A stretch of 64,000 nucleotides of DNA from Ascidia mentula. Its lineage: Eukaryota; Chordata; Ascidiacea; Phlebobranchia; Ascidiidae. A program made the position numbers and the translations under genes. This document shows, piece by piece, positions 3,313 through 58,719 of this stretch. Positions within the stretch are counted from its first letter, which is position 1; each line of letters begins with the position of its first letter. The stretch lies in NCBI GenBank assembly GCA_947561715.1, contig OX387199.1:16249001-16313000 (forward strand). The letters are read 5' to 3'. The notes under the pieces were generated by a model. It did not search any database and was not told the origin of the DNA. It saw only the letters and a program-made list of their open reading frames with translations.

Positions 3313-3609
3313 ATGAAAATGAAAGCACACATTACGTTACTTTTCTTGATTTTGTGTGGATTGTGCTTTTGTTCTCACGGAAAATCATTCAACGATAAAA
3401 GGGATTCGGATATGGTGAAACCTCCATCGGGATTCAAGGATAATGCAGAAAATCGACAAAGAAGAGATTCGGATATGGTGGGACCTCCAAACGGATTCAA
3501 CGATAACGCAGAAAATCGACAAAAAAGAGATTCGGATATGCCGAGACCTCCAATGGGATTCAACGAATACGCAGGAATAGTGCCTCCGCGGGGATTACGC
3601 AAGGACTAA
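3313..3609 (+). CDS. Secreted repeat-peptide precursor A (3 units)
   Basis: This is a 98-residue intronless precursor. Residues 1-23 form a signal peptide with hydrophobic core ITLLFLILCGLCFCSHG, followed by a short spacer ending in Lys-Arg. Three units follow, each beginning DSDM and containing PPxGF. The first two end ENRQ plus a dibasic site (one is Arg-Arg); the last ends in a distinct tail, GIVPPRGLRKD. Cleavage at dibasic sites by a proprotein convertase would release 19-residue acidic peptides; this is inferred from the layout. No Gly precedes the dibasic sites, so amidation is not expected. The start is the ATG after the conserved leader; an upstream in-frame TTG is not credible. It is nearly identical to gene F (43958) but has two fewer units. 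The family is not recognised; neuropeptide-like or host-defence roles are both open. Confidence 0.85.
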   Translation: MKMKAHITLLFLILCGLCFCSHGKSFNDKRDSDMVKPPSGFKDNAENRQRRDSDMVGPPNGFNDNAENRQKRDSDMPRPPMGFNEYAGIVPPRGLRKD

Positions 3610-4114
3610 AATTGAGAAAAAATAGTAATCTCTCCTTGAAATGTATAGATTTTAACTAACTCAAATGAAACGTAGTAGCTTGGCTTCCTATATACCGTGT
3701 TTAGGCCTGCCGACGTTATTCAAAGTAACATTTTATTACTGCAAACATTTCTCATAATATTGTTACAAAGAAACAAATTTTTAAATCTAACCTTCAAAAT
3801 GTAACGACATGAAATAATTAATCTTTAAAAAAAGGAAAAATGGCGATTTAAATTGTGACTTTCCAACTTGCAAATTTCCGTAAACACGACGCTTATCTGG
3901 CTTAGCTGCAAAAAACAAATACACAACCAAGTACAAAAGTTTTATGTGAACTTTTGTGATTTATTTTACACATTTCAGATTCTCTTTTGGATCTAGTGGG
4001 GTACTAGTTGAGGAATGAAACAGATGTAGATACTGAATGTTGGTCTCCAAATCACGAAATTTATAAAAATTGATAAGCGGATTGGAAGTAATTACATAAC
4101 CTAATGTTAAGATT

Positions 4115-4600
4115 TACGAACAACAGAATATCCTCGTCCCAATCAAACGCGAGGTTTGTCCCATCATGTCATGGTCCAATGCACATCCACAAAGCAGTCT
4201 AACCCAATTTCGTGCTAAACACGGCTAAGTGAACGCCAAGTTAGCGAAAACAATCCTGAAACACCTCCATGTACAACTTTGCAGCTTGGTATCCGACTTT
4301 TGGATGGGCAGGCAAGCGGAACCCTTTTTCGTAAAGGAAATTCATCGTTTAATGTTTTACATGCATCTGTAGTCAAAACACAGAGTTTGGCATTGCAAAC
4401 TTTCCTAAATATGTGCTTTTTTGCTTGATATACTTTTGTCATACCAAATTTTTTTTTGCAATTTTTAACATCATTGAACGACTGAGTAAGTTTAAATTTT
4501 TGGCAACAGTTTGATGACTCGTGGTCGCGCCAATCTTATACCCAAACACGAAGTGAAACCTCAATTGAAATAAAGCTATGTTTTACGAATTTACATTGTG
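4115..4600 (+). repeat. Module alpha (reference copy)
   Basis: A ~480 bp non-coding module downstream of each peptide gene. It is marked by ATGTCATGGTCCAATGCACA, a GCCAAGTCAGC block and GATGGGCAGGCAAGCGGAAC. Other copies start near 6545, 10570, 22140, 31690, 34730, 44885, 48360 and 57350, all on the + strand. Short ORFs across it are not conserved. Confidence 0.8.
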
Positions 4601-4959
4601 TCTCCACAAACGCTTATGTGAATAATGTTATGATGGCTAAATTTTCAAAAACCTTGAAAATCTATCGACAAGATTTGTATCCATTGTAATCCGAGAAAGA
4701 AGTGTAAATGATGATTTAGATGTATTACCTTTTTGTAACACAACGCTTACCTCGCTTAGCTGTAAAAAGCAAATGCAAAACAAATTTTGGTATGAACTTT
4801 TTTCTTTATTGTGAGGATTTCTGAAAAGCTCAACGGCGACGTAAAAGAATTAGATGATGTGCAACAAAATTTGCTAATCTCCAGAACACAATTAGGTATA
4901 AAAAATAAAAGAGGCATATCTACAGCGCATAAAGTATAATAAAATGAATTATAGTTGAG

Positions 4960-5720
4960 GTTTCAAGTCCTCGACCACAAGAATGAATTGTCCAATCACG
5001 ACACGGTCCAATGCACGTCGGTAAGTGCGAGCTTACTAACACAAAACTGCGGAACACTGTTGAGTGAACCCCAAGTCAGCAAAAACAAACATGACACACC
5101 TCCAAATGCAGCTTTGTGGTCTATTTTTTAGATGGACAGTCAAGCGGAACCTTTTCGCGTGATCTCGGACAAAGAACACTTAATGTTCTGGCAATGTAAG
5201 TTTTCCTGAAGATTAAGCCAAAAGAGTATGAGTTGTACCCTTTTTTGCTTTACATACCAATAGCATATACCAATTCATATTTGCAAATTTGTTAAAACTG
5301 ACTTTTAGATGCAACACAGTAATAAGTACGTACGCAACATTTTAGCCGCCATCCCTAAGAGCAACCAAGCGGAAAACTTTTATTGATCTTAAAAAAAATT
5401 ATATGTGCCATGCCTGACGGCTTGATAAATACATTTCCTACACTGCTGTTTTACAGAGATTTGTGGTACGATATAACGACTTTATATTTGTATTTTTGCG
5501 TAATTACCATGATCAGCATGAAATATGGGCGCAAAAATTCTGTATATATAAGACTTATCGGGACTTCTGTAGAAACAGAAAGCAATGGGAAGCATTAAAC
5601 CATAAGTTATTAAATTCCAGCGCCACATCTGGCTCCACAAGCTTTTCATAGAAACTCGCGGGCAACGTTGTCACGCTCAAGTTCACCACACAATGTTACT
5701 TAATCCGGACCGGCGGACAA
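4960..5720 (+). repeat. Module beta (reference copy)
   Basis: A ~750 bp module whose first ~280 bp resemble module alpha (CACGGTCCAATGCACGTC, AAGTCAGCAAAAACAAACATG, GATGGGCAG, CGCGTGATCTCGGACAAAGA). It then has its own 3' part with TACGTACGCAACATTTTAGCC and TTATATGTGCCATGCCTGAC. Further copies lie near 6730, 11310, 22440, 32535, 38800, 45735 and 51845. The alpha-beta similarity suggests an older internal duplication before the large units multiplied. Confidence 0.8.
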
Positions 5721-6091
5721 AATATTATCCCTAGCACAACTTGCTTTGGTCGTGAAAACCTTGTAGCCTTCTGATTCATTCTGCAAACGGGCGTTATTTG
5801 TGCACTTTTCTTGATAAGTTTTGAGTCTATTTCAAACTAATTAAATTAGAATTTGTTCATTTATAAATATTGTTGTTTATTCAAGCAAAAAGAAATGTCG
5901 TTAGTAACTTGCGCAAAAATATTGGACTGCATAAATCTTGTTTTTTTTTACAATATGCATAGTTTAATTATGAAATAATTTTTTTTCCCACACCAATGTT
6001 TGTATCCAGGTTAGCCAGGAAAAAAAATCCAAATCAGGTTTTCCATCTGTAATATGGGTCAGGCCCTGGGTCACTATTCCCGCCCTGAAGT

Positions 6092-6215
6092 GATTTTTTT
6101 TTACCACTCCGGGATTTGAACCCAGGTCATCCTGGGCACGAATCCCGATCAGGTTTTCTTCTTGGTTCACGGGTCGGGCGCTTGGCCAATGCTGCCAATC
6201 ACCCGCCCTGACTTT
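6092..6215 (-). mobile_element. tRNA-derived SINE copy
   Basis: On the minus strand there is an A-box-like TGGCCAAGCG and, about 60 bases later, a B box GGTTCAAATCCC, followed by an A-rich tail (T run at 6093-6102 on +). The A-to-B spacing is too long for a functional tRNA, which fits a SINE head. Similar copies lie at 12509-12722 and 52861-52975, and more diverged ones near 33590, 39930 and 46860. Confidence 0.6.
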
Positions 6216-7647: not shown

Positions 7648-7810
7648 GGAAAGGAAAGTGACATTTAAAAATTTTGTGTGGATTGTGCTTTTGTTCGCAC
7701 GGAAAAGAGTTTAACGATATTGGGCTAAAAACGATTTTGAAGAACATTGGTGTTCTTTCGACATAATTCAATGATAATGTAGCAATTCGACAAAAAATAG
7801 ATTCTTTCTG
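7648..7810 (+). pseudogene. Degenerate repeat-peptide gene fragment
   Basis: The family leader, ATG and MERK start are recognisable, but a deletion inside the signal-peptide region shifts the frame and a stop follows soon after. One TGTGGATTGTGCTTTTGTTC signal segment and a FNDN-like remnant remain; no complete unit survives. The GATGGCGCTAAA motif is missing upstream. Confidence 0.65.
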
Positions 7811-9582: not shown

Positions 9583-10068
9583 ATGGAAAGTAGAGTACAC
9601 ATTACGTTACTTTTCATGATATTGTGTGGATTCTGCTTTCGTTCTCACGGAAAAGCGTTCAACGATAAAAGGGATTCGGATATGGTGAGACCTCCATTGG
9701 GATTCAAGGATTATGCAGAAAATCGGCAAAAAAGGGATTCGGATATGGTGGCACCTCCATCGGGATTCAAGGATAATGCAGAAAATCGACAAAAAAGGGA
9801 TTCGGATATGGTGGCACCTCCAAATGGATTCAAGGATAATGCAGAAACTCGACAAAAAAGAGATTCGGATATGGTGAGACCTCCAAAGCGATTCAAGGAT
9901 AATGCAGAAAATCGACAAAAAAGAGATTCGGATATGGTGAGACCTCCAAAGGGATTCAAGGATAATGCAGAAAATCGACAAAAAAGAGATTCGGATATGG
10001 TGAAACCTCCAGTCGGATTCAACAAAAACATAAAAATAGCGCCTCCGCTGGGATTACGCCAGGACTAA
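9583..10068 (+). CDS. Secreted repeat-peptide precursor B (6 units)
   Basis: This 161-residue intronless precursor is the longest intact family member. A signal peptide (HITLLFMILCGFCFRSHG) is followed by a short spacer and Lys-Arg. Six units then begin DSDMV; five end with the dibasic site and the last runs into the tail APPLGLRQD. Variable residues are confined mostly to the two positions around the Pro-Pro pair (R/A/K before, L/S/N/K/V after), while DSDMV, PP, GF and ENRQ are nearly invariant; unit 4 has Arg in place of the Gly of GF. It lies between a Penelope-like fragment and module alpha. Release of several similar peptides is inferred from the dibasic sites. Function unknown. Confidence 0.85.
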   Translation: MESRVHITLLFMILCGFCFRSHGKAFNDKRDSDMVRPPLGFKDYAENRQKRDSDMVAPPSGFKDNAENRQKRDSDMVAPPNGFKDNAETRQKRDSDMVRPPKRFKDNAENRQKRDSDMVRPPKGFKDNAENRQKRDSDMVKPPVGFNKNIKIAPPLGLRQD

Positions 10069-12903: not shown

Positions 12904-14330
12904 TGGTTGTCCACAGTTCGGACGTGAACTGAGGGCCACGATCTGACGATACGTGACTGGGAATGCCGAACCTCGCAACCCAATGAAAAACGAAAGCACG
13001 TGCACAAGTGATGGTGGTGGCGTCATCGATTGGTATCGCTTCCGGCCATCGGGTGAAGCGGTCGACCACAGTTAATAAATACCTTTGAACTAGACAAAGT
13101 GGAAGAGGACCAACGATGTCGATGCTTATGTGTTGAAAACGAGATGTCGGAGGGCGGTACTCGGCAAGTGGAGCCTGAACGTGCTGCTGAACCTTGGCGC
13201 GCTGGCAAGCTACACATTGCTTGGCCCACAACGCTACTTGCTTCTTTAACCCATGCCAAACAAATTTGGAGGCAACAAGGTTATTCGTGGTGCGAATGGA
13301 CGGGTGGGACAATCCGTGAACGGCATCGAACACCTTCTTTTGCCAGGACGAGGGAACGACGGGCCGAGGTCTTCCAAGGGATGTGTCACACAGCAGCGTG
13401 GTTCCTGAATTTCCAACCGGGACATCTTGCAAAAGCAACACGGTAATTGCTGTGCGATAAGACTGCACTTCATCGGTTTGTTGCGCGGCTGCCAGAGCCT
13501 CGCAATCAAGGTCGAATAGAGGCACACGTAGGGCACTAAAGAGAGACCTGGAAAGTAAGTCCGCGACAGCATTCGACTTGCCGCTACTGTGCCGGACATC
13601 GTTAGTGAACTCGGAAATGGAAGAAAGTTGATGCTGCTGGCGAGCAGGCCAAGGGTCGGCATCCTTCTTGAATACGAAAGTAAGGGGCATGTGGTCGGTG
13701 TACGCAGTAAACTTGCGCCCTTCCAGAAAATAGCGGAAGTGCCTGATTGCCAGATGCAGCGCAAAAAGCTCGCGGTCAAAGGCGCTGTACTTTGTTTCCG
13801 GCTTACTCAACTGACGGCTGAAGAAAGCAAGTGGGGCCCAATGACCGTCGGAAAAAAAAGGACTGCACCCACAGCGGTCGCAGAGTCATCTGTCGTGAGC
13901 GCGATGCAGGCTTGCCACTGTGGATGATGCAAAAGCGTAGCATTGGCGAGCCACACCAGTTGTTTAGGTTTGCCCGCTAAAGTACCATAAAGCGGTTTCA
14001 TAATATTGGCAATATTGGGCACGAACCTGTGGTAGAAGTTGACCATCCCTGAAAACTCCTGTAAACCTTTGATGGTGGTCGGCACAGGAAAGTTCTTCAC
14101 CGCGTCAACTTTGCTGGACGAGGGTTGGATGCCGCAGTGGTCGACGAAATACCCAAGAAACTCGATGCTACTTTTGCCAAACTCGCACTTTTGTACGTGC
14201 TTTCGTACTGCGCCTCAGCTTGTGGCGAACAACACAAAAAACACGAGTATATAAGGCGGCAATCACGACACGGGAAAATGGCAATAGCACGCTTCAATGC
14301 ACAGGCGAACACTACAGTTTGGTCGCCACA
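12904..14330 (-). pseudogene. Ty3/gypsy relic (RT end, RNase H, integrase core, part of LTR)
   Basis: The minus strand encodes the RT/RNase H connection (QEFSGMVNFYHRFVP), RNase H (FDRELFALHLAIRHFRYFLEG, TDHMPL) and integrase with a zinc-finger C-x2-C and the catalytic-core stretch SIDIVGPLPL. Frameshifts separate the pieces and the 3' end is cut off inside integrase at 12904. Bases ~14230-14330 are the remaining part of the short LTR. It is the sister copy of the element at 53662-55638 and keeps the integrase core that the other has lost. The gag start seen in the other copy is missing. Confidence 0.8.
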
Positions 14331-14361
14331 ATATCTTCAATATGTGTGTTAAGCTGTTTGT

Positions 14362-15038
14362 TCACCTCCAGTTTGTGAGTCCTAAAAATCGGGCATGCAA
14401 ATGCAGATCATTGACAGGTAAGGAATTTAACAATCGGACCAGGTATGCGTTCCTATTTTTTTCAACAAGTTTCATAATTGTTACGTGTCTGAGCATACCA
14501 TCATCATTTATGGCACCAGCTTGACGAAGGCCCTTCACAAATTTCTCGCACCAGGCCTTACTATGCAAGTGAGGATTTATAGATTCATGGTTCAAGTCCA
14601 ATTGCTTCATTTGACATAGTTTCCTTTTCCTAACGTTGTTGTAGGATGTCTCGCTGAAAATTGCCAGTTTCCCATGTTCGTCCGATTTGTATTTTTCGAT
14701 GATATTGTGTGTCACCAACCGCAAAATCTTACGCAGATTGCATCTTTGGAGAGAGATTATGAAGAAAATTGTTTCGTTTCGGGAAGCATTTGCTGCACTT
14801 TTGCTTGTATAATGCGTAGCTTGGCAAATGCCGATTCCGTGTAGGTCTTGATCTTTTTATGTAAAAACTCAGCACCGGGGCCCGAAACATTAGGAATTGC
14901 AAGTTTTCCTATTCTCATCACTTTCACACTGAGTGAAGAAATCCGTCTTGTTGAAGTACAGAGTAATGTCGTTATGCTGCTGTACTTCCCGGTTTGCCAA
15001 TAAACCAAGACAAATAACCCCCTGGTTTGTGACGTCAC
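14362..15038 (-). pseudogene. Unrecognised repeated coding-like segment (best preserved)
   Basis: Two open stretches read on the minus strand. The first (15038-14757) contains IGKLAIPNV and a lysine-rich IKTYTESAFAKLRIIQAKVQ helix-like run. The second (14724-14362) contains THNIIEKYKSDEHGKLAIF, LCQMKQLDLNHESIN, SKAWCEKFVKGLRQAGAIND and MLRHVTIMKL. A near-identical copy is at 55670-56346 and diverged copies lie near 1040-1725, 29824-30186, 34530-34718, 41750-42344, 47797-48340 and, inverted, 19620-19990. An RT-like motif lies further downstream on the same strand at 53345-53644. It could be the N-terminal part of a Penelope-like polyprotein; not established. Confidence 0.4.
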
Positions 15039-15586
15039 AGTGTCGTATTTTGTGTGATGCCACAGCTTGCCTTGACCCTTAAAAGAAACGTACTTTGGGG
15101 GTTTTCCTGTATTTGAATTCGCTGCAGCGATAAAGGTTTACGATTATTGGTCGCCGCTATTATCAGTATAGTTTTCTACACTAAGTTGACGTATAAGCGA
15201 AAAACTTTGAAAATACGTGAATTGTAGATGTACCTTTAGTTTTCCACAAGTTGCTATGGCCAAACCACATGCACTTTAATCGTGCCCACAGTTTCGAAAC
15301 GAATTGTCGCATGTTAAAGTCACGACCTAAAAGTTTATCCCCTGAAAATGTACTTGAATCGGCAGTTGTTGTAAGTAAAACATAGCATAAAGATTTATGT
15401 TTTGTTTTACCACAAAATATGTTGATATTTGACCGCAGCAAAATAGAATCGGTTTGGCAATAAAAGCACACGACGGCGCTAAAGGGGTGTATCTACTGAA
15501 TTTCGATCATTTATGAAGTCCTTTTCACCCAGGTCTGGGATCTTCGATATTGTGGTTTAGGAGTTTGAATATTGTGATTAAAAGCA

Positions 15587-15832
15587 TGGAAATGAAAGTT
15601 CGCAGTATGTAACTTTTATTGATTTTATGTGGTTTGTGCTTTTGTACCCACGGAATTTGATGACAATCGTCTGAAAACAATATTGATGAACATTAGAGTT
15701 CTTTCGCGAGAGTTCAATGATAATGTGGAAATTCGACAAAAAAGAGATTCGGATAATGCGTTCGCGAAAAACATTCGCAAAAAAAGTAAAAATGCCCAGT
15801 TCAATTTCAATGTTGTTACATGTAAATTTTAG
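15587..15832 (+). pseudogene. Degenerate repeat-peptide gene
   Basis: The start MEMKVRSM is followed at once by a TAA inside the signal peptide. The rest, in shifted frames, retains CGLCFCTHG, TILMNIRVLSR, FNDNVEIRQK and a single RDSDN remnant before diverging into lysine-rich sequence ending at 15832. The copy at 56895-57140 has the same lesions, so it was already broken before duplication. An upstream motif copy (CACACGACGGCGCTAAAG) sits at about 15468. Confidence 0.7.
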
Positions 15833-16331
15833 AAAACACAACGCTTATCTCGTTTCGCTTTAAAAAGGAAATACAAAATTAAACACGAACTTTTTGTATG
15901 AATGTTTCGGATTTTGTTCCAGTCCTCACCTACAACCCAACTCGATCCACAAACGGATCTAAAATATGTACAATAAATCAGCAAAGTTCGTATAACACTT
16001 TTGTGTTTGGTTTTGTATTTGGTTTTTACAGCTAAGCCAGACAAGCGTCGTGCTTACGAAAATTTGCAAGTTGCGGCATCAAAATTAAAATTATCATTTC
16101 CAATATTTCCAAAGATTAAGATATTTACAGCCGTTAGATTTCAAATGTTGAAATTTTTAAAATGATTGTCTTCATAGCAATATTCTGATAAATATTTGCG
16201 GTGATAAAATGTAACTTAAAAAAACGTGGGTAGGCTAAAATATGGCATATAGAAAGCCAAGCTATTACATTTCTTTTTTTGTTAGTTAAAATCTACACCT
16301 TATAAGAAGCGTTTAGTATTTTTCTACAATT

Positions 16332-17238
16332 TTAGGCCTTCCGTAATCCCCGCGGAGAGGATATTCCTGCGTTTTCGTTGAATCCGGATGGAGGTGCCAC
16401 CATATCCGAATCCCTTTTTTGTCGATTTTCTGCATTATCACTGAATCTTGGTAGAGGAGGTCCCATCATATCCGAATCCCTTTTTTGTCGATCTTCTGCA
16501 TTATCATTGAAACCTAGTGGAGGAAGTCTCACACTATCCGAATCCCTTTTTTGTCGATCTTCTGCATTTTCATTGAAACCTAGTGGAGGAAGTCTCACAC
16601 TATCCGAATCCCTTTTTTGTCGATCTTCTGCATTATCATTGAAACCTAGTGGTGGAAGTCTCACACTATCCGAATCCCGTTTTTTGTCGATCTTCTGCAT
16701 TTTCATTGATACCTAGTGGAGGAAGTCTCACACTATCCGAATCCCTTTTTTGTCGATCTTCTGCATTATCATTGAAACCTAGTGGAGGAAGTCTCACACT
16801 ATCCGAATCCCTTTTTTGTCGATCTTCTGCATTATCATTGAAACCTAGTGGAGGAGGTCTCATCATATCCGAACTCCTTTTTTGTCGATCTTCTGCATTA
16901 TCATTGAAACTTAGTGGAGGAAGTCTCACACTATCCGAATCCCTTTTTTGTCGATCTTCTGCATTATCATTGAAACCTAGTGGAGAAAGTCTCACACTAT
17001 CCAAATCCCTTTTTTGTCGATCTTCTGCATTATCATTGAAACCTAGTGGAGGAAGTCTCACACTATCCGAATCCCTTTTTTGTCGATTTTCCACAATATC
17101 ATTGAATAATCGTGTAAGACCTCCAATGTTTTCCGAGATCGTTTTCAGCCGATTATCGTTCAAATCATTTCCGTGAGAACAAAAACACAGTCCACACAAA
17201 ATTAGTAAAATTAACGTAATGCTACCTTTCCTTTGTAT
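16332..17238 (-). pseudogene. Repeat-peptide pseudogene C (11 units)
   Basis: This is the largest family member. Reading on the minus strand: a signal peptide core (SITLILLILCGLCFCSHG), a non-repeat stretch (LKTISENIGGLTRLFNDI), then 11 tandem units, most of them of 22 residues (DSDSVRLPPLGFNDNAED plus RQKR), and the tail SSPRGLRKA. Two lesions are visible. The family ATG is ATA here (17236-17238), and one extra base near 16679 shifts the frame between units 6 and 7. Most units carry an extra Leu before Pro-Pro, making a 66-base repeat, so this array amplified independently of the 63-base arrays elsewhere. A non-ATG start is possible but unproven. Confidence 0.75.
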
Positions 17239-17279
17239 GTTTTTCGAAGTCTCTCAACTTACAATATCAAATACTCGTG

Positions 17280-18719: not shown

Positions 18720-19022
18720 AAGAATAGTTTAGTATTTTTCCACAATTTGATAATTGTGTAATCCCAACGGAGGTCCTATTTCTGCATTATCATTTAAACC
18801 CTTTTTTGTTGATTTTCTGTATTGTTGTTAAATCTGTTCCACATTACTCGAAGTCCCTGTTTAGTCGAATTTGCATATCATCATTAAATACTTGCGAGTG
18901 AACTAAATGTTCTTCAAAATCGTTTTCGGTGGATTATCATCAAACGTTTTTCCGTGGGAACAAAAGCACAATCCACAGAAAAGTAGTAAAATTACCATAC
19001 TGCGAACTTTCCTTACATGCTT
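18720..19022 (-). pseudogene. Degenerate repeat-peptide gene (inverted)
   Basis: On the minus strand the ATG is followed directly by a TAA. The signal-peptide segment (LLLFCGLCFCSHG), a TILKNI remnant and traces of two units (NNNTENQQK, NDNAEI) remain in broken frames. An upstream motif (AGCACACGATGGCGCTAAAG in minus orientation) is intact at about 19068-19087. Confidence 0.65.
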
Positions 19023-21294: not shown

Positions 21295-21648
21295 ATGGAA
21301 ATGAAAGCACACATCACGTTACTTTTCTTGATATTGTGTGGATTGTGCTTTTGTTCACACGGAAAAGAGTTCAAGGATAAAAGAGATTCGGATATTGTCC
21401 GACCTCCATTTGGATTCAACGATAATGCAGAAATTCGACAAAAAAGGGATTCGAAAATGGTCCTACCTCCATTGGGATTCAAGGATAATGCAGAAAATCG
21501 ACAAAAAAGGAATTCGGATATGGTGAAACCTCCATCGGGATTTAACGATAATGCAGAATATCGACAAAAAAGAGATTCGGATGGTGTGATGCCTTCAAGG
21601 GGATTCAACGCAGGAATATCCCCTCCGCGGGGATTACGCAAGGATTAA
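21295..21648 (+). CDS. Secreted repeat-peptide precursor D (4 units)
   Basis: This 117-residue intronless precursor has a signal peptide nearly identical to that of gene A, then EFKDKR and four units: DSDIVRPPFGF, DSKMVLPPLGF, NSDMVKPPSGF and DSDGVMPSRGF. Three are closed by a Lys-Arg site; the last leads into the tail AGISPPRGLRKD. The first residues of the units vary more than in genes A, B and F (Asn for Asp in unit 3, Lys for Asp in unit 2, Pro-Ser for Pro-Pro in unit 4), so this copy is older or less constrained. It is followed by shortened alpha and beta modules and then the gypsy insertion. Intact, presumably expressed; function unknown. Confidence 0.83.
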   Translation: MEMKAHITLLFLILCGLCFCSHGKEFKDKRDSDIVRPPFGFNDNAEIRQKRDSKMVLPPLGFKDNAENRQKRNSDMVKPPSGFNDNAEYRQKRDSDGVMPSRGFNAGISPPRGLRKD

Positions 21649-23986: not shown

Positions 23987-26680
23987 TTAGGACGCTTGAT
24001 AAAATTTGGTTTGTCGCCGATTTCGCTGTGACCGGCTATCATTCATCGTCGCCGCAGCGTCATTTATGTCGGCGCCCAAACCTTGACCAACGTCCATCAA
24101 TGGCCGTGTAGGCAACCCAGTATCCTGCGCAGTGGGTGTGTTCGTGCGTGTTTCGCTTTGTGGTGTGTAGATAACAAAATTGTCTGTGTCGTGCAGCCCG
24201 AGCTCATCCGGCTGCGTGCTTCGGCGTTCTTTTTCATGGTAAGGCATGTTTGCCTTTTTCAAGCGGTTAAAATGTACTTGCTGCTGTTTGCCATCCTCTC
24301 CTTCAATAAGGTAATTCACCATACCGTGTTGCTCAATAACTTTAAAAGGGCCTTTGTATGGTCTGATGAATTTTCGGCACTCGCCAGGCGGAACCACCGG
24401 ATTCTCCAACAGAACGATGTCGCCTTTCGTGATTTCGTCTCCATGCCGTCGTCTATTATATTGTTCTTGCATGTGAACTCGTTGGGTCGTCAGGGTTTCT
24501 CTGGCTACCTCCTCGGCCAGTCGCAACCGAGCTCGTAGCCCATCCAAATGAACCAGCGGAGTCGTTGCCACTTCATGATCTGGAGAAATGAGATCGGCGG
24601 GTAGGCGCAGTTCGTGTCCTGTAAGTAGAAAGTGAGGGGATACCCCCGTGCTTTCATGCCGGCTTGCGTTGTACGAAGTCACCACCGCCGACAGTGCTTC
24701 ATCCCATTGTTTACTATCGCGTTGGACGTAATTGCGGAGCATTGTTATGATGGTGCGGTTGTTGCGTTCGACTCCCCCATTGCTCGCGGGGTGATATGGC
24801 GTCGTTCGGGTCTTTTTACAACCCATCAACCTCACCAGTTCTGCAAATAATTTGCTTTCGAAATTCCCCCCTTGATCGGAGTGAATTACCTCAGGTACCC
24901 CATGTACCGTTAGCCACCTGTGAAACAAAATGCTCGCTGTTTCATGTGCGGTTTGATGCCGCATAGGCCACGCCCTAACATATTTTGTGAATAAATCACA
25001 AGCGACTAGGATATACTGGTATCCTGTCCTGGTTAACGGAAGTGGACCAAGCACATCAATCTCAACGCGTTGCATCGGTCGCATTTCTTGTGATGGAACT
25101 AACGGTGCTCGGGTGGTAGTGGTTGGTTTCTTGTTTCGTTGACAGTGTTCGCATTTACGGCAATAAGCCTCGGTCTCTTCTCTCCATTTTAGCCAGTAAA
25201 AACGCTGTGACAGTTTGCTCAGGGTTTTAGCCATTCCCAAGTGTCCCCCGCCGTGTACCTGGTCGTGGCACGCGGACAGCACTTCGCTGCGCATGGCAAA
25301 GGGTACCAACACTTTCTGAACATCGTTTAAACCTGGCACCGCACCAGGGTCAGTAATGAATAGCACCCCACCGTGACATGATAGCCGCTCGAAAAGGCTC
25401 CATAAGTGTTTTGTCTCTGCCGACAGGCGTTTGACGTGGCGAAAAGACGGCCTTATACCCTGTTGCACCCATTTTACTACAGGACGCAAACTTAAGTCCC
25501 CATACTGCGCTTCTGCTACATGGGTGGACTCATACCCGTACTCCGCCTTTAAATCAAGTGCAAGTACCTCTTCCAATGACTCATCCTCACGAACTGTGTA
25601 AGGGAATCCGTCATCTTTCGGTTGCCTCCGGCTAAGCGCGTCTGCGTTTGTGTGCTTCTTTCCGGGCCGGTGTTGAAGATCAAAATTGTAACTAGCCAGG
25701 TGTTCAACCCATCGAGCACATTGTCCATAGAGTTCCCTGGATCTCCACAGCCAGCGAAGGGATGAATGGTCTGTGCGCAACAAAAATTTCGATCCGAGCA
25801 AATAACTGCGATACAACTTAGTCGCAAATATGACGGCCAGCAATTCCTTGCGAGTTGTGGAATAATGCTTTTCAGCTTTGCTCAATGACCTACTGCCGTA
25901 AGCGATCACATGCTCCTTACCGTCAATTTCCTGACCGAGAACACAACCTACGGCTGTGTCCGAGGCATCGGTGTCCAACACGAAGGGTCGGCTAAAGTCG
26001 GGATACTGTAGGACTGGAGCTGTTGTCAGAATTCTTTTCAGTCTGGCGAACGCCTGCTGGCAACTGTCCGTCCAGACAAAACGACGTCCCTTTTCTGTCA
26101 ATTTGTGCAAGGGGGAGGCAATACGAGCGTAATCTTTAACAAACTTTCTGTAATACGATGTAAGACCCACAAATTGACGCACCTGTTTTACAGATTTTGG
26201 TACTGGCCAATCTTTAACTGATCGTACCTTATCGGGGTCGCATCGTATTCCATGTTTTGACACTACGTGACCAAGGAATCGCACTTCATCTTTGAACAGG
26301 TCGCACTTCGTGGGCTTTAGTGTAAGTCCAGCCGACTCTAGGCGTGAAAGAACATCTTCAAGACGCTGCATGTGTTCGTTGAAATTTCTACCATAAACAA
26401 TCACATCGTCTAAGTATGCGAGTGTTCCTTGCCACTCTATACCCTGCAGCACAATACGCATTAGGTGTTGGAAGCTTGCCGCTGAGTTGCATAATCCCAT
26501 AGGCATCACGGTGAATTCAAACAAACCCATGTGACTGGCAAAGGCTGTCTTCTCCCTTGATTGTTCGTCCATGGGGATCTGCCAGTAGCCAGATTTTAGA
26601 TCAAGGGTGGAAAAGAAACGTGACCCAGACATTTCATCCAGGCTATCATCAACCCGGGGAATAGGGTAACTGTTTTTTTT
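23987..26680 (-). CDS. pol: Gypsy Pol: reverse transcriptase, RNase H, integrase
   Basis: This is an uninterrupted 881-residue frame from its first Met at 26632 (open slightly further upstream). It holds the RT palm with LDLKSGYWQI and catalytic YLDD (residues ~73-76), the RNase H domain (VLDTDASD near 220, then ELLAVIFATKLYRSYLLG), the integrase zinc finger (H...H...CRKCEHC near 480-520) and the DDE core (EIDVLGPLP, HSDQGGNF, GGVERN with the catalytic Glu). A GPF-type motif lies in the C-terminal region; there is no chromodomain and no env. All catalytic residues I can place are intact. The frame is separated from the upstream Gag-protease-RT frame only by a single-base shift in an A run, described in the next entry. 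Confidence 0.9.
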   Translation of the reverse strand, partial: KKNSYPIPRVDDSLDEMSGSRFFSTLDLKSGYWQIPMDEQSREKTAFASHMGLFEFTVMPMGLCNSAASFQHLMRIVLQGIEWQGTLAYLDDVIVYGRNFNEHMQRLEDVLSRLESAGLTLKPTKCDLFKDEVRFLGHVVSKHGIRCDPDKVRSVKDWPVPKSVKQVRQFVGLTSYYRKFVKDYARIASPLHKLTEKGRRFVWTDSCQQAFARLKRILTTAPVLQYPDFSRPFVLDTDASDTAVGCVLGQEIDGKEHVIAYGSRSLSKAEKHYSTTRKELLAVIFATKLYRSYLLGSKFLLRTDHSSLRWLWRSRELYGQCARWVEHLASYNFDLQHRPGKKHTNADALSRRQPKDDGFPYTVREDESLEEVLALDLKAEYGYESTHVAEAQYGDLSLRPVVKWVQQGIRPSFRHVKRLSAETKHLWSLFERLSCHGGVLFITDPGAVPGLNDVQKVLVPFAMRSEVLSACHDQVHGGGHLGMAKTLSKLSQRFYWLKWREETEAYCRKCEHCQRNKKPTTTTRAPLVPSQEMRPMQRVEIDVLGPLPLTRTGYQYILVACDLFTKYVRAWPMRHQTAHETASILFHRWLTVHGVPEVIHSDQGGNFESKLFAELVRLMGCKKTRTTPYHPASNGGVERNNRTIITMLRNYVQRDSKQWDEALSAVVTSYNASRHESTGVSPHFLLTGHELRLPADLISPDHEVATTPLVHLDGLRARLRLAEEVARETLTTQRVHMQEQYNRRRHGDEITKGDIVLLENPVVPPGECRKFIRPYKGPFKVIEQHGMVNYLIEGEDGKQQQVHFNRLKKANMPYHEKERRSTQPDELGLHDTDNFVIYTPQSETRTNTPTAQDTGLPTRPLMDVGQGLGADINDAAATMNDSRSQRNRRQTKFYQAS

Positions 26681-28760
26681 TGGTTGCTTCGTTTACTTGT
26701 CGATAGTCGACGCAAAATCGTAACTCACCAGACTTCTTTTTCACCAGAACAATCGAACTTGACCATGGTGAGGTTGAAGGTCTCACGAGTCCTTGGCTTC
26801 GCATTTCGTTGATGATCTTCTCAACCTCCGTTTTATGATGGATGGACATTCTTCGAGGATGTTGACGGATTGGTGCCGCATCCCCGGTGTCGATCGAATG
26901 TCGAACAAGATCAGTCCGGCCTAGGTCAAAGTTACATGTCGAAAATGCTTTTTGATGGCGACGAAGAAGTTTTAAAACATCCTCCCTCTGGGTTGCTGAC
27001 AACCCATCTCCGATACTCACGCCTTGGTGAATGCATTCCCAACTTTCTTCATTGGTCGGTGTCTGTGCATAGGAGATATTGCAAACTTCCTCTGTAGGTT
27101 GCACACTGCTGTCTTCAACAACAACACACCATTCCGATAATGGACATGCAACGTTGCCAAAAGCGTGTACTGGAATCGCGACAGCAACCCTAGTTGCTGA
27201 TGGTACTAGGATTGGGTCATCGGTAAAATTGGCTATACGTATGTTTACCTCATTTTTCCGCACAGTTGAAACACAGTTCGCTGTACAGAGTCCAATCTTT
27301 TCTGTAAACCCCGGTCTTCGCGCAATATACACTTCAAAGTCAGGGATGTCTTCTCCGCAGACGTCAAGGTGGTAACGACATGTGGCCCACACCTCCGACG
27401 TTGGAGGGACTTCTGTGGCATCGGTCACACAAATATCTCTGGTACGTTGTACGAAAGACGACGAGAGTAATGGCACCTTAGCACGGCCCGCTGTCAACAA
27501 ATTTTGGTCGTAACACACACTGCAGCGGTTCTTCTGCAGAAAATCCAAACCCAAAATTAAGTGGTGAGCGACTCCCGACGCGACATATAAACACGTGGGT
27601 ACATCTAGCCCTCCCAGTTTAACATTTACAGTGATTTTCCCAATAACTGAAACCAAACTACCGTTAATTCCAGAAAAACGTTCGTTTTGGCCCAGCGGGG
27701 AGATTTTGAGGCGATCATTGTTCAACGTCTCTAAACACTTTTGGCTAATCAAAGAGACACTTGCACCAGTATCAACTAAAGCACATACCGGCTCTGAAGC
27801 GATAGAAATGTTGACAAACCGTACTAATCGGGGTTTGGTGGGATTCTCGCTCGTGTTCTGATTATTGGTAGGATTCGAAGTTTTGGGTTCGGTGTCCTTC
27901 AAACATACGCTTGCTTTTGCCTCTTGGGTCACAGGGGTACCAGGTCTTTTATTGAAATTCCTGCGAGGCGTAAAACTGGCATGAAAGCCGCGCTTACCTT
28001 GCATTGGGCAAAATTTTTGCAAGTGTCCTGGTTTACCACAGGCATAACAGCGTCGATCCAACCTGTCTGCCATCTGATGTGGTGTTGGTTTCCCCAATCG
28101 CTGCACCTCGCGGCGTACAAGCTCAATGTCCTTCTGGAGCGCGGTCACAGTTTTTTTGAATTCTCGAACGCTGATGTCTGCATCCTTTTCCGGTTGTTTT
28201 GATACTGATGGACCTTGAACATCACGACGACACACGCCTAAAACCTGGGACATTTCCGGTACATGCGTGGACAAGACCATCTGAGCGGCCGTCCAAAAGT
28301 CCCGTTTATATTCCAACCGTTGCGGCAGGGATCTGGCCATGTGCTGGTCCAACATGCCAACAAAGAGTAATGAATATAACACCTCATTTTTAACAGCCTT
28401 CTCCGTAGGATAAGCCTTGTCGCCAAGAGCTTTCAAAGCATACACAAAGTCCTTAATGCTTTCCTGTGGCAACTGCCGCCGGCCAAACAACATTGCGCGT
28501 GTTTCATGGAGGCGCGAGTGGTCAGAACCTTGCTTTAGGGCGCGGCTAATTAACTCATCGTACTTCAGTTGAAAAACATTATTGTCGTTTCCCTGAACTA
28601 GCCAGCGGAGGTCATCATCAATTGATGTCAAAAAAAGATGACGTTTAACTTCCTCACTAGCTTTCACACTCTCACAGTACGATTCAAATAAGGCAACAAA
28701 CTGGCCAACATCTTGTCCCGGTACAAAGCGCGGTGGCGATAAAAACAAATTAAAAGACAT
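26649..28760 (-). CDS. gag: Gypsy Gag, protease and start of RT
   Basis: A 703-residue frame starts at an ATG 64 bases inside the 5' LTR boundary. Residues 1-200 are a Gag capsid-like region. A coiled region precedes the CCHC knuckle CYACGKPGHLQKFC (~239-252). An aspartic protease follows with LVDTGAS (~330-335) and HLILGLDFL, and then the RT fingers (CVDYRQVNEA near 685). The frame then ends early. A run of nine A (complement of T at 26673-26681) shifts the reading by one base relative to the RT palm frame downstream. That is either a true inactivating mutation, an assembly error in a homopolymer, or a programmed slip site. Confidence 0.88.
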   Translation of the reverse strand: MSFNLFLSPPRFVPGQDVGQFVALFESYCESVKASEEVKRHLFLTSIDDDLRWLVQGNDNNVFQLKYDELISRALKQGSDHSRLHETRAMLFGRRQLPQESIKDFVYALKALGDKAYPTEKAVKNEVLYSLLFVGMLDQHMARSLPQRLEYKRDFWTAAQMVLSTHVPEMSQVLGVCRRDVQGPSVSKQPEKDADISVREFKKTVTALQKDIELVRREVQRLGKPTPHQMADRLDRRCYACGKPGHLQKFCPMQGKRGFHASFTPRRNFNKRPGTPVTQEAKASVCLKDTEPKTSNPTNNQNTSENPTKPRLVRFVNISIASEPVCALVDTGASVSLISQKCLETLNNDRLKISPLGQNERFSGINGSLVSVIGKITVNVKLGGLDVPTCLYVASGVAHHLILGLDFLQKNRCSVCYDQNLLTAGRAKVPLLSSSFVQRTRDICVTDATEVPPTSEVWATCRYHLDVCGEDIPDFEVYIARRPGFTEKIGLCTANCVSTVRKNEVNIRIANFTDDPILVPSATRVAVAIPVHAFGNVACPLSEWCVVVEDSSVQPTEEVCNISYAQTPTNEESWECIHQGVSIGDGLSATQREDVLKLLRRHQKAFSTCNFDLGRTDLVRHSIDTGDAAPIRQHPRRMSIHHKTEVEKIINEMRSQGLVRPSTSPWSSSIVLVKKKSGELRFCVDYRQVNEATKKKQLPYSPG

Positions 28761-30770: not shown

Positions 30771-31193
30771 ATGGAAAGGAAAGTTCACATTGCCTTAATT
30801 TTCTTGATTTTGTGTGGAATGTGCTTTTGTTCTCACGGAAAAGCTTTCAACGGTAAAATTGATTCAGATATTGTCCGACCTCCAGCCGGATTCAACAAAA
30901 ATGCAGAAAATCGACTAAAACGAGAATTGGATATTTTGTTACCTCCAAAGGGATTCAACGATAATGCAGAAGATCGACGAAAAAGGGATTTGGATATGGT
31001 GAGACCACCACCAGGATTCAACGATAATGCAGAAAATCGACAAAAAAGGGATTTGGATATTTTATTACCTCCAAAGGGATTCAACGATAATGCAGAAGAT
31101 CGACAAAAAAGGAGTTCGAATATGGTGGCACCTCCAATAGGATTCAACGAATACGCAGGAATAGCGCCTCCGCAGGGATTACGCAAGGACTAA
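30771..31193 (+). CDS. Secreted repeat-peptide precursor E (5 units)
   Basis: This 140-residue intronless precursor is the most divergent intact member. Its signal peptide is VHIALIFLILCGMCFCSHG. Units begin DSDIVRPPAGF, ELDILLPPKGF, DLDMVRPPPGF, DLDILLPPKGF and SSNMVAPPIGF, with AEN/AED before the dibasic sites (LKR, RKR, QKR) and the tail AGIAPPQGLRKD. Units 2 and 4 are the same variant alternating with others, which points to duplication of a two-unit block. Here the N-terminal Asp-Ser-Asp is often replaced by Asp-Leu-Asp or Glu-Leu-Asp, so the released peptides would differ from those of genes A, B and F. Function unknown. Confidence 0.83.
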   Translation: MERKVHIALIFLILCGMCFCSHGKAFNGKIDSDIVRPPAGFNKNAENRLKRELDILLPPKGFNDNAEDRRKRDLDMVRPPPGFNDNAENRQKRDLDILLPPKGFNDNAEDRQKRSSNMVAPPIGFNEYAGIAPPQGLRKD

Positions 31194-43062: not shown

Positions 43063-43215
43063 ATGGAAGTTCGCAATATGTTACTTTTACTTATTATGTG
43101 TGGAATATTCTTTTGTTCCCACGGAAGAGAGTTTCATGATAAACGGGTGAAAACGATTTTGAAGAACATTAGAGTTGTTTCGCGAGGATTCAATGATAAT
43201 GTGGAAATTCGTTAA
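43063..43215 (+). CDS. Short secreted peptide ORF, degenerate or divergent family member
   Basis: This open frame of 50 residues has a signal peptide (MLLLLIMCGIFFCSHG), EFHDKR, then a 22-residue basic stretch beginning VKTILKNIRVVSRGF and ending NVEIR before TAA. Unlike the acidic units of the main family, the segment after the Lys-Arg site is cationic and could form an amphipathic helix. Remnants of ordinary units follow the stop out of use (to ~43445), so truncation of a longer gene is the simplest explanation. The sister copy at 2455 stops nine codons earlier. Homologous basic stretches remain in the pseudogenes at 15587, 16332 (C), 18720 and 56895. Either a pseudogene or a small cationic peptide gene. 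Confidence 0.45.
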   Translation: MEVRNMLLLLIMCGIFFCSHGREFHDKRVKTILKNIRVVSRGFNDNVEIR

Positions 43216-43807
43216 AAAATAGATTCGGACTTTGTGAGGCCTCAACACGGATTGAACAATAACCCAGAAAATCAACAAAAAAATGATTCGGATATTTTGT
43301 TACCTCCCTTTATATGCAATGCAAAAATATAGAGGAAACAGAGATTGGGATAGTGTGAAACCTCAATGATAATCCAGAAATAGACCATCCGACGGAATTT
43401 TGTTGATAATCCAGAAATACACCATCCGACAGGATTAGGCAGGGACTAAATTTGTGATAATCAACTAACCTTTCTTTAAAACGCGTAGATTGTTTACTAA
43501 CAGACAGGATATAGTAATTTAGCTTCCTTTGCAATGTGTTTAGCGCAATGGTGTGAAACATTCGCAAAGTTACATGTTGCTTTCATAAACGTTTCTTAGT
43601 TATTGTTGTCTTAGTGAAATGCATATCCACAAAGCTGACTTACCCAATTAATTTTCCGAAACCATTGATTAATATGTGAGAAGTATAACTCACCATGTAA
43701 AACTAGAACAGCCATATTTGTATGTAATAAGAGAAGTGGTTCTTTTCTCAAAGAGCTTCAAGAAGATTTTTGAAATTGGGCGTAGCAAAATAGAAACATT
43801 GTGTTAA

Positions 43808-43957: not shown

Positions 43958-44380
43958 ATGAAAATGAAAGCACACATTACGTTACTTTTCTTGATTTTGT
44001 GTGGATTGTGCTTTTGTTCTCACGGAAAATCATTCAACGATAAAAGGGATTCGGATATGGTGAAACCTCCATCGGGATTCAAGGATAATGCAGAAAATCG
44101 ACAAAAAAGAGATTCGGATATGGTGAAACCTCCATCGGGATTCAAGGATAATGCAGAAAATCGACAAAAAAGAGATTCGGATATGGTGGGACCTCCAAAC
44201 GGATTCAACGATAATGCAGAAAATCGACAAAAAAGAGATTCGGATATGGTGGGACCTCCATTGGGATTCAAGGATAATGCAGAAAATCGACAAAAAAGAG
44301 ATTCGGATATGGTGGGACCTCCAATGGGATTCAACGAATACGCAGGAATAGTGCCTCCGCGGGGATTACGCAAGGACTAA
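43958..44380 (+). CDS. Secreted repeat-peptide precursor F (5 units)
   Basis: This 140-residue intronless precursor has the same signal peptide and leader as gene A, then five units: two identical DSDMVKPPSGF units, DSDMVGPPNGF, DSDMVGPPLGF, and the terminal DSDMVGPPMGF with tail AGIVPPRGLRKD. Every internal unit closes with Lys-Arg after ENRQ. The flanks are nearly the same as those of gene A over more than a kilobase on each side, so the two genes are recent duplicates. The extra units here, including one perfectly duplicated, show change in unit number by slippage or unequal exchange while the frame is kept (63-base steps). The encoded units are highly uniform, which supports function or recent homogenisation. 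Function unknown. Confidence 0.87.
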   Translation: MKMKAHITLLFLILCGLCFCSHGKSFNDKRDSDMVKPPSGFKDNAENRQKRDSDMVKPPSGFKDNAENRQKRDSDMVGPPNGFNDNAENRQKRDSDMVGPPLGFKDNAENRQKRDSDMVGPPMGFNEYAGIVPPRGLRKD

Positions 44381-50850: not shown

Positions 50851-50855
50851 ACATC

Positions 50856-52860: not shown

Positions 52861-52975
52861 GATTTTTTTTCTAAGACCAAACCGGGGTTTGAACCCAGGA
52901 TGTCATGGGCACGAAGCCCGATCAGGTTTTATTCTTGGTATACGGGTCGGACGCTTGGTTAATGTTGCCAATCAC
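52861..52975 (-). mobile_element. tRNA-derived SINE copy
   Basis: Minus-strand B box GGTTCAAACCCC with a short A tail at the left (T run at 52862-52869); orthologous to the older copy at 12509-12611. Confidence 0.6.
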
Positions 52976-53644: not shown

Positions 53645-53661
53645 GTGCCTAATAAGTATAT

Positions 53662-55638: not shown

Positions 55639-55669
55639 ATATCTTCAATATGTGTGTTAAGCTGTTTGT

Positions 55670-56346
55670 TCACCTCCAGTTTGTGAGTCCTAAAAATCGG
55701 ACATGCAAACGCAGATCATTGACAGGTAAGGAATTTAACAATCGGACCAGGTATGCGTTCCTATTTTTTTCAACAAGTTTCATAATTGTTACGTGTCTGA
55801 GCATACCATCATCATTTATGGCACCAGCTTGACGAAGGCCCTTCACAAATTTCTCGCACCAGGCCTTACTATGCAAGTGAGGATTTATAGATTCATGGTT
55901 CAAGTCCAATTGCTTCATTTGACATAGTTTCCTTTTCCTAACGTTGTTCTAGGATGTCTCGCTGAAAATTGCCAGTTTCCCATGTTCGTCCGATTTGTAT
56001 TTTTCGATGATATTTTGTGTCACCAACCGCAAAATCTTACGCAGATTGCATCTTAGGATAGAGATTATGAAGAAAATTGTTTCGTTTCGGGAAGCATTTG
56101 CTGCACTTTTGCTTGTATAATGCGTAGCTTGGCAAATGCCGATTCCGTGTAGGTCTTGATCTTTTTATGTAAAAACTCAGCACCGGGGCCCGAAACATTA
56201 GGAATTGCAAGTTTTCCTATTCTCATCACTTTCACACTGAGTGAAGAAATCCGTCTTGTTGAAGTACAGAGTAATGTCGTTATGCTGCTGTACTTTCCGG
56301 TTTGCCAATATACCAAGACAAATAACCCCCTGGTTTGTGACGTCAC
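55670..56346 (-). pseudogene. Unrecognised repeated coding-like segment (sister copy)
   Basis: Nearly identical to 14362-15038, with the same two open stretches and only a few substitutions (for example a lost Met/Val in the middle). Together with 53345-53644 it seems to be the 5' part of one minus-strand coding element into which the gypsy element inserted. Confidence 0.4.
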
Positions 56347-56894
56347 AGTGACGTATTTTGTGTGATGCCACAGCTTGCCTTGACCCTTGAAAGAAACGTA
56401 CTTTGGGGATTTTCCTGTATTTGAATTCGCTACAGCGTTAAAGGTTTACGATTATTGGTCGCCGCTATTATCAGTATAGTTTTCTACCCTAAGTTGACGT
56501 ATAAGCGAAAAACTTTGAAAATACGTGAATTGTAGATGTACCTTTAGTTTTCCACAAGTTGCTATGGCCAAACCACATGCACTTTAATCGTGCCCACAGT
56601 TTCGAAACGAATTGTCGCATGTTAAAGTCACGACCTAAAAGTTTATCCCCTGAAAATGTATTTGAATCGGCAGTTGTTGTAAGTAAAACATAGCATAAAG
56701 ATTTATGTTTTGTTTTACTATAAAATATGTTGATATTTGACCGCAGCAAAATAGAATCGGTTTGGCAATAAAAGCACACGACGGCGCTAAAGGGGTGTAT
56801 CTACTGAATTTCGATCATTTATGAAGTCCTTTTCACCCAGGTCTGGGATCTTCGATATTGTGGTTTAGGAGTTTGAATATTGTGATTAAAAGCA

Positions 56895-57140
56895 TGAAAA
56901 TGAAAGTTCGCAGTATGTAACTTTTATTGATTTTATGTGGTTTGTGCTTTTGTACCCACGGAATTTGATGACAATCGTCTGAAAACGATATTGATGAACA
57001 TTAGAGTTTTTTCGCGAGAGTTCAATGATAATGTGGAAATTCGACAAAAAAGAGATTCGGATAATGCGTTCGCGAAAAACATTCGCAAAAAAAGTAAAAA
57101 TGCCCAGTTCAATTTCAATGTTGTAACATGTAAATTTTAG
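56895..57140 (+). pseudogene. Degenerate repeat-peptide gene
   Basis: Sister of the copy at 15587, with the same TAA inside the signal peptide and the same single RDSDN remnant. Motif CACACGACGGCGCTAAAG lies at about 56774. Confidence 0.7.
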
Positions 57141-58351
57141 AAAACACAACGCTTATCTCGTTTCGCTGTGGAAAGGAAATACAAAATTAAACACGAATTT
57201 TTTGTGTGAATGTTTCGGATTTTGTTGGGAGACCTGGTGAAGCATTAGGTGTGGAATGGAGCAAATGTATTAAACACTGCTTGTCTCCGAATCATAAAAT
57301 GTTTAAAAAATGAACAGTTATTTGGCATGTATCAAATACTTAGTTGAGATTTACGAACAACGAAAAGTTCCTCGTTCTATTCAATCGCGAGGTTTGTCCC
57401 ACCATGTCATGGTCTAATGCACAGCTGCAAAGCTGGCTTTTCGTAGTTAACACTGCATGCTGATAGAACGCCAAGTCAGCGAAAACAATCTTGACACACC
57501 TCCAATTACAACTTTGGCAGCTTTGTATCCGACTTTTGGATGGGCAGGCAAGAACCTTTCCGTGATCTTCGACAAAAACATTCATGGTTTAAACGTTTTT
57601 ATTGTACTGTAGGCACTACACAGTGTTCGACATTGTAGGTTTTCCAGAATATGTGGTTTTTCGCTTAATATACTCCAGTTACACCAAAATTATGTTGTGC
57701 ATCTTTTGAATTCATTGAACGCCCGAGCAAGTTTCATGAGTTTTTTTTTCATGTTCTGCTGCTTATTGCTTGCCCTTGAGAAAGCCTCGAAAAATTTCAA
57801 TAATATATGTGCTTGTTATCGCAGAAACTATTAAACTTGCCTTCCCAGGTTTTTAACCGTCTGCCTTTATTGCGACACGGACTCTGTACCTGTGAACCAA
57901 AAAACTCCAATATCTTCCAGTTTTGGGTAGTAGATATTGCGAATTATAAGATCTATAGGTGGCAAAGTGTAAGGTGATTCGCTGAATTTAAAAGCCTACA
58001 GAATCTTCAGCAAAGTGGAAAACTGGTAAGATTGATATTTACTGACGAAATCGAGACTGATGGCATCTGCAAGTTGCCACCGAAGAATAAAGTAATTATT
58101 TTAACAAAATAATATAATGGCATGTTGTTTCCCGTGCGTTATAATATATATAGCACCTGATTGTCAGTATTGTAAAGGTGCTGAGAAGTTTTTCTGTAAG
58201 TTTTCCAAAACCATTGATATTAATATGTGAGATTTACCATGCAAAGTATAAAATCCATATATGTGTGTAATAATAAGGGAAAAACTTTTTCAAATATCTC
58301 CAAGTAGATTATTGAAATAGGGCGCAGTAAAATAGAAACAGTATGGTAATA

Positions 58352-58368
58352 ATGATGGCGCTAAAGGA
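58352..58368 (+). promoter_or_regulatory. GATGGCGCTAAA motif upstream of the last family member
   Basis: AATGATGGCGCTAAAGG, about 140 bp before the ATG at 58496; CACTTCTACTTGG and ACGAGTATTTGATATTG follow as in the family. Confidence 0.5.
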
Positions 58369-58495
58369 TTGTGTCTACTTCACCTCCTTCATTATTAAGT
58401 CCCTATTTTCTACCTAACCCAAATCACTTCTACTTGGAGACATAGGAAAACACGAGTATTTGATATTGTAACCTGAGAGACTTGAGTCGAAAAAC

Positions 58496-58719
58496 ATGGA
58501 AATGAAAGTTTACATTACGTTACCTTTCCTAATTGTGTGTGGATTGAGTTTTTGTTCCTACGGAAACAAAGGTCAACACGGTGGGCATTTCCCGACAACG
58601 AAACTTATTTTCATAAAAATATGCGTCCTTCAGACTGTGACGACACATTGTACATAGTTCCAAGCACGCAACGAGAAAAAGCAGGACATGCAGCCACAGA
58701 GCAAACCAGTGATGCATAG
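58496..58719 (+). pseudogene. Divergent last member of the peptide family
   Basis: The leader and signal peptide (MEMKVYITLPFLIVCGLSFC) clearly belong to the family, but the repeat units are replaced by unrelated sequence. In the frame of the signal peptide there are about 53 residues ending at TAG 58655-58657. In the next frame the sequence stays open to 58719 and encodes a hydrophilic stretch with two Cys (MRPSDCDDTLYIVPSTQREK). Either a frameshifted member with a new C-terminal part, or a splice junction that I cannot see. Confidence 0.45.

Follow-up and report, generated by a model that had tools for sequence, protein, structure and literature searches.

Secreted precursors that hold several peptides in tandem are a known kind of protein, and a family of this kind lies in a 64,000-nucleotide stretch of the genome of the ascidian Ascidia mentula (G000, 195.8 Mb in 79 contigs; contig C52, positions 16249001-16313000), hereafter the window. 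Among the closest described systems is Baramicin A of Drosophila, a secreted precursor whose tandem peptides of ~23 residues are parted by furin cuts at RXRR and belong to the immune response; these peptides alone did not kill the tested fungi in vitro (both from the accessible part of PMC8423362). Apidaecin and ant hymenoptaecin precursors carry repeated defence peptides cut at basic pairs and flanked by EAEP spacers, an arrangement seen as dose amplification (accessible part of PMC3415428). Fungal Kex2-processed repeat proteins are secreted repeat precursors of variable unit number (accessible parts of PMC6339444 and PMC7329392), and yeast α-factor is likewise a secreted repeat precursor cut by Kex2 (accessible part of PMC5850478). 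We tentatively propose that the ascidian family consists of furin-processed secreted precursors of extracellular defence effector peptides, which would work like Baramicin without being homologous to it.

Family members were located by tblastn of the window with leader, unit and tail pieces, using the reversed window as a control. The leader piece reached a top E-value of 1.4e-33 in the window, compared to 0.019 as the best of 88 hits in the reversed window. The window holds five intact genes, all on the + strand and encoding 98-161 residues, in addition to eight broken copies (Table 1), in line with an earlier note on this DNA that had counted five intact and at least seven broken genes. Each intact gene consists of a hydrophobic leader, 21-residue units with KR or RR at their end, and a tail whose last residues are GLRKD or GLRQD, so that the signal-type leader, repeat unit and common tail described in the note are all present. 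The leader has a hydropathy of ~3.0 across 11 residues, with Ser-x-Gly preceding the presumed cleavage site; the signal peptide was judged from this hydropathy alone, without a predictor. The unit consensus of the window subfamily is DSDMVxPPxGFxDNAENRQKR, and a predicted 19-residue mature peptide is exemplified by DSDMVGPPNGFNDNAENRQ. With leader, tandem units and basic cleavage sites, the layout is indeed that of a hormone- or defence-peptide precursor.

A genome-wide protein search with gene 5 of the window gave at least 163 matches. The window lies in a cluster of ~377 kb (C52, 16.17-16.55 Mb), in which 37 matches among those listed start at the leader (query residue ≤ 5), two of them containing stops. 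From 20 fetched intervals, which cover most but not all of the listed cluster genes, we obtained 32 starts that reduce to 26 open leader-bearing reading frames after removal of inner-Met duplicates; the cluster counts below refer to these 26 genes. The canonical tail is present in 22 of them, members of 80-161 residues are common, and a TATAAAG-like consensus is partly conserved upstream of the 26 aligned genes. Distant paralogues on the same contig form a second group at 17.80-17.88 Mb, where the open reading frames (ORFs) at 17.85 and 17.874 Mb have 67 and 27 tabulated units, respectively; a further piece lies at 15.58 Mb. The latter, L052 (15.578-15.579 Mb, - strand), is a divergent member with mixed units HRSPPPGFKQHFESRRKR and runs of MKR and GKLTSSIQNV. 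The earlier note was thus right about the copies in the window, whereas the cluster, the distant paralogues, the furin-type junction and the 226-unit precursor described next were not part of it.

The longest array is found on contig C67, in one uninterrupted frame of 5014 residues that opens with an ATG at 7459626 and whose stop codon ends at 7474670. This precursor begins with a 34-residue piece containing the leader, continues through 226 units, each of 22 residues, and closes with the short stretch SEENDAPL, and none of the 227 KR junctions between its 228 pieces is lost. Its 16 variant bases all change a residue and none is silent, the chance of finding no silent one being ~0.02. Matches of the genome search at this array recur ~4 kb apart. 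Unit counts are given as in the assembly, in which long arrays may be mis-assembled.

The conserved features of the unit were read from a table of 479 units from six subfamilies, cut at KR and, in the 17.84-, 17.85- and 17.874-Mb subfamilies, also at R-X-[KR]-R; by construction, therefore, every unit ends in KR and 109 units have Arg at P4. The table comprises pieces of 17-27 residues, which leaves out some pieces with a lost junction, and does not include L052. Counted back from the cut, P6 is Glu in 471 units, P11 is Phe in 477, P5 is Asn in 411 and P4 is Arg in 403. Where the cutting left P4 free, Arg occupies it in 294 of 370 units; of the other 76 units, 75 represent the Cys variant in the C67 precursor. 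The C-terminal half of the unit is thus near-fixed (F-x4-E-N-R-Q), whereas the N-terminal half varies between subfamilies in sequence and length, giving units of 18-26 residues with halves such as DSDMVxPPxGF, SEENVLPPLPGF, SKENAPPANVGF, NLGNxPPPPGF and SLEHHSDLQDLPGGRF. Accordingly, PPxGF is typical of the window's subfamily and not of the whole family.

At the unit junctions of the cluster genes, R-X-[KR]-R was found in 147 of 148 cases, a pattern count in which P4 was free, and R-X-K-R is the furin consensus. By contrast, the leader junctions are plain dibasic (n = 20), and the KR after the leader is absent in six genes. Because P11 Phe and P6 Glu are constant although they lie mostly beyond what furin is expected to require, the pattern suggests that the peptide itself, and not only the cut site, is under constraint. 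Directly ahead of KR, the 21-residue units of the cluster have Gln, His, Arg, Leu or Tyr, and the 226 units of the C67 precursor have Gln or Pro; a Gly at this place, which would signal amidation, was seen in neither set. The cluster unit consensus has no Cys and one Phe. Among 138 cluster units there are 79 distinct 19-mers, of which 68 carry a net negative charge, 10 are neutral and one is positive, with a mean grand average of hydropathy of -1.33.

Compared to the described systems, the family shares with Baramicin the tandem peptides parted by furin sites, at nearly all cluster junctions and with the exception of 75 of the 226 C67 units, which lack P4 Arg. The likeness is one of layout, and therefore supports similar working rather than kinship. 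Baramicin has few units, one or two genes, an insect host and an IM10-like motif, VXRPXRTV; this motif is absent from the unit consensus, and membership in the Baramicin family was rejected. Membership among apidaecin and hymenoptaecin was likewise rejected, as EAEP-type spacers are missing beside the cleavage sites: adjacent units meet at KR with nothing in between, and most of the peptides are acidic. Fungal Kex2 repeat proteins and α-factor are known with far lower unit numbers. Cnidarian RFamide and similar neuropeptide precursors hold many copies between basic cleavage sites, but the present family differs from multi-copy neuropeptide precursors in its furin-type junctions, gene cluster, diversified sites and missing amidation signal, and the lack of Gly before the basic site excludes it from the amidated neuropeptides. 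In addition, some units read R-P-P-x-G-F and thereby resemble the bradykinin-type core RPPGF; however, they have one residue more between PP and GF, flanks that are acidic and rich in Asn, and no match in Pfam or PDB, and we regard this resemblance as chance.

Database searches agreed with the earlier note that no named family has this consensus. A single-gene query of a collection of 5.8 billion proteins gave none of 1800 candidates at E ≤ 0.001, and a nine-sequence profile including distant paralogues gave none at E ≤ 0.01 among the 7993 candidates scored from a capped list; the collection contains COX1 of several ascidians from UniRef/nr, but the nuclear proteome of a near relative in it has not been demonstrated. 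The Pfam lines (Neurokinin_B, Tal_Pri, L32e, KIND, MenC_N and others) were all under the cut-off, the single NCBIfam line scored 25.1 bits against a cut-off of 429, the PDB sequence search returned no match, and full-text searches of open papers for the family's peptide strings found none. The one Pfam score above its cut-off, DUF4019 on the 17.874-Mb protein (34.7 versus 26.5 bits), was rejected as a repeat artefact, since no single stretch passes alone. An AlphaFold model has a mean predicted local distance difference test (pLDDT) score of 55.9 and a predicted template modelling (pTM) score of 0.15, and shows short helices of low confidence within the C-terminal half of every unit. This lack of a confident fold is as expected for a disordered precursor, and an input alignment with eight sequences would produce it too.

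Taken as defence effectors, the precursors, with their hydrophobic leader, 0 to 226 tandem units mostly ending in R-X-K-R, and short tail, would be processed in several steps. The signal leader would route the precursor to the secretory pathway, where a furin-like convertase would cleave after R-X-K-R, and a carboxypeptidase would then trim K and R, so that the cluster peptides would end in ENRQ. The released peptides are predicted to have ~16-24 residues and to be mostly acidic, hydrophilic, unamidated and free of Cys, although one Cys is present in a third of the C67 units. Array growth within genes, together with tandem and segmental gene duplication, would raise the dose and supply variants of what may be lineage-specific extracellular effectors, working like insect Baramicin or apidaecin precursors. 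The leader hydropathy, the furin-type junctions, the near-fixed P6 and P11, the constrained core with its diversified sites beside Pro-Pro, the large cluster with its broken copies, the near-identical blocks and the very high unit numbers (226, 67 and 27) were counted in favour of this proposal, in which the defence role, argued by analogy, is the least certain step.

The manner of growth can be read from C52, on which near-identical blocks with 98.7-99.8% identity lie ~205.4 kb apart. Because these blocks share one contig, the family looks to have grown by local tandem and segmental duplication. The genome duplication put forward in the note was dropped: local duplication accounts for the observations, and nothing indicating a whole-genome event was seen, though no dedicated test was made. 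The segments at 16.227-16.243 and 16.432-16.449 Mb are a segmental duplicate pair carrying several family genes; the duplicate at this spacing may be either recent or an assembly artefact.

Selection was assessed from uncorrected Nei-Gojobori proportions of nonsynonymous (pN) and synonymous (pS) differences, which are indicative only because shared ancestry and gene conversion affect them. In 94 distinct 63-base units of the 26 cluster genes, a constrained core of 16 of the 21 sites has a pN/pS of 0.28 (0.19-0.37 by gene bootstrap, with 60 resamples and 40 units drawn from the resampled genes), a figure lowered by setting aside sites 4, 12 and 17 after inspection of the table. Sites 6 and 9, which flank Pro-Pro, have a pN of 0.63 compared to a pS of 0.17 over the other 19 sites, and were not chosen solely post hoc, as they had already been called variable; the picture of a constant core with variable residues around Pro-Pro is therefore borne out. 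The leader has a pN of 0.129 and a pS of 0.188, compared to divergences of 0.256 for 300 upstream bases and 0.197 for 600 downstream bases (averages of 217 of 231 pairs, those with an upstream divergence above 2%), and its pN/pS across the cluster is ~0.69. In the five window genes, where numbers are small, pN/pS is 0.33 in the core, 0.51 in the leader, 2.55 at sites 6 and 9, and 2.51 in the last 16 tail codons, which offer few sites. The prospect, raised in the note, that the five intact genes evolve neutrally with a dN/dS near 1 thus does not hold for the core, and nearly holds for the whole unit, at 0.90.

Several observations weigh against the proposed defence role or its furin processing. 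The acidic, hydrophilic 19-mers are unlike classical cationic antimicrobial peptides. Cys replaces P4 Arg in 75 of the 226 C67 units, which spoils the furin consensus there, and junctions have been lost in one 42-residue cluster piece and in one 44-residue piece at 17.85 Mb that contains RQER. The near-neutral value for the whole unit in the window genes is accompanied by 0.68 over all unit sites of the cluster genes, and the leader pN (0.021) equals the pS (0.022) across the 14 gene pairs closest to each other, so that constraint on the leader is moderate at most. Moreover, a 62-bp satellite of 28 copies with 97% matches (L038:1599-3345, C52 ~16.340 Mb) corresponds to the 63-bp unit minus one base and is out of frame, and matches with regular stops run on across ~16.340-16.351 Mb. 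The DNA unit therefore also expands where it is not coding, and a high unit number does not by itself demonstrate selection for dose. Finally, the only immune-like neighbour seen, a ficolin-like gene, may be there by chance.

Among the other explanations, we consider it unlikely, though the least so, that these are neuropeptide or peptide-hormone precursors whose units would be cleaved by neuroendocrine convertases and recognised by receptors of the animal itself. The family has the general layout of such precursors, namely a signal peptide judged by hydropathy, tandem near-identical units and dibasic cleavage at KR, and the near-fixed F-x4-E-N-R-Q half could serve as a receptor-binding end. 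However, the missing Gly before KR leaves no amidation signal, the cluster junctions are furin-type instead of plain dibasic, the residues beside Pro-Pro diversify, and dozens of genes with hundreds of units are far above what is usual for a hormone. Species-specific neuropeptides do occur in Ciona (accessible part of PMC8936170), but the motif is not in CiEMa, the sole Ciona peptide compared (accessible part of PMC10888236).

It is doubtful, too, that the near-fixed half F-x4-E-N-R-Q-K-R acts as a docking and processing module joined to many N-terminal halves, with unstable in-frame arrays of up to 226 units and turnover of the cluster yielding ever new variants by which microbes, mates or kin would be recognised. 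Rather improbable is a role as external chemical signals, such as pheromone-like cues in gamete, larval or kin recognition, in which the fixed end would bind, the variable end would confer identity and the unit number would set the output as in yeast α-factor. The diversified sites 6 and 9 and the different N-terminal halves borne on one C-terminal module across subfamilies would suit such signals. However, yeast pheromone output rises with unit number up to about six repeats and gains no further (accessible part of PMC5850478), so that dose alone leaves 226 units unexplained.

That the family is a mostly neutral coding satellite, a leader with an unstable 63-66 bp repeat spreading by unequal exchange and having little function, appears quite improbable. 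The satellite derived from the coding unit, the numerous broken copies, the 16 replacement and no silent variants of the C67 array, and the leader and whole-unit ratios all fit with it; they are opposed by the retention of the canonical tail in most fetched leader ORFs, the constrained core sites, and P11 Phe and P6 Glu common to subfamilies with differing N-terminal halves. Least probable of all is a structural, adhesive or tunic matrix protein whose repeats remain joined, with incidental KR sites: the C67 protein is very long and internally homogeneous and a Cys in each of 75 units could cross-link, but the gene retains every KR junction, short members are common, the cluster consensus has no Cys and a single Phe, and the predicted structure offers only short helices of low confidence.

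Table 1. Intact precursor genes and broken copies of the family in the window, all located by tblastn
Feature	Position	Strand	Description	Located by
Intact precursor gene 1	3313..3609	+	98 aa; 2 units leader to tail; tail GLRKD	tblastn
Intact precursor gene 2	9583..10068	+	161 aa; 5 units leader to tail; tail GLRQD	tblastn
Intact precursor gene 3	21295..21648	+	117 aa; 3 units leader to tail	tblastn
Intact precursor gene 4	30771..31193	+	140 aa; leader/first-unit join KI not KR, then 3 units	
Intact precursor gene 5	43958..44380	+	140 aa; 4 units leader to tail	tblastn
Broken copy	2455..2700	+	in-frame stops; KTILKNI variant leader	tblastn
Broken copy	7671..7796	+	in-frame stop; KTILKNI variant leader	tblastn
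Broken copy	15586..15790	+	stop inside leader	tblastn
Largest broken copy	16332..17238	-	no ATG in leader; frame shift within ~10 units; 22-residue units of type DSDSVRLPPLGFNDNAEDRQKR	
Broken copy	18800..19010	-		tblastn
Broken copy	43063..43308	+	in-frame stop; KTILKNI variant leader	tblastn
Broken copy	56894..57098	+	stop inside leader; in stretch 98.3% identical to 14224-15918	
Leader remnant alone	58496..58564	+		tblastn

The three KTILKNI copies on the + strand and the copy at 17238 on the - strand have a variant leader in common, in which KTILKNI or KTISENI comes after the signal peptide, and these copies are perhaps an older subfamily. Nine ORFs of the window were scanned for domains, giving four retroelement frames, one transposase, one GIY-YIG, one fibrinogen and two without a domain. 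A Gypsy-type retroelement (23987-28760, -) has protease and pol frames open across long stretches. At the window edge, a collagen-like exon (62694-63011, -), below the Pfam cut-off, adjoins a fibrinogen C-terminal exon (62202-62426, -), and the two together (62202-63011) look like a ficolin-type gene. Rfam and tRNA scans of the window found nothing.

The COX1 gene on contig C79 has 16 AGR codons that read as Gly in the ascidian mitochondrial code, including those in MIGGFGNW, which would be Ser under table 5; Gly is the usual COX1 residue at these positions and is also found there in Phallusia. This COX1 is nearest to that of Phallusia, with 90% identity, compared to 76-81% for the other named tunicates among the matches listed. 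As the mitochondrial code is that of a tunicate, fungal Kex2 repeat proteins and cnidarian and ctenophore peptides were set aside as identities for the family.

Multi-peptide secreted precursors are known as a kind, but neither this family nor its 226-unit member nor its design of one fixed and one varied half was met in the sources searched; to our knowledge, the family size and the 226-unit precursor lie far beyond usual multi-peptide precursors. As none of the scored candidates from the 5.8 billion proteins proved to be a relative, repeat genes of this type may escape gene finders. The family is a natural case for the joint action of repeat number, homogenisation and diversifying selection.

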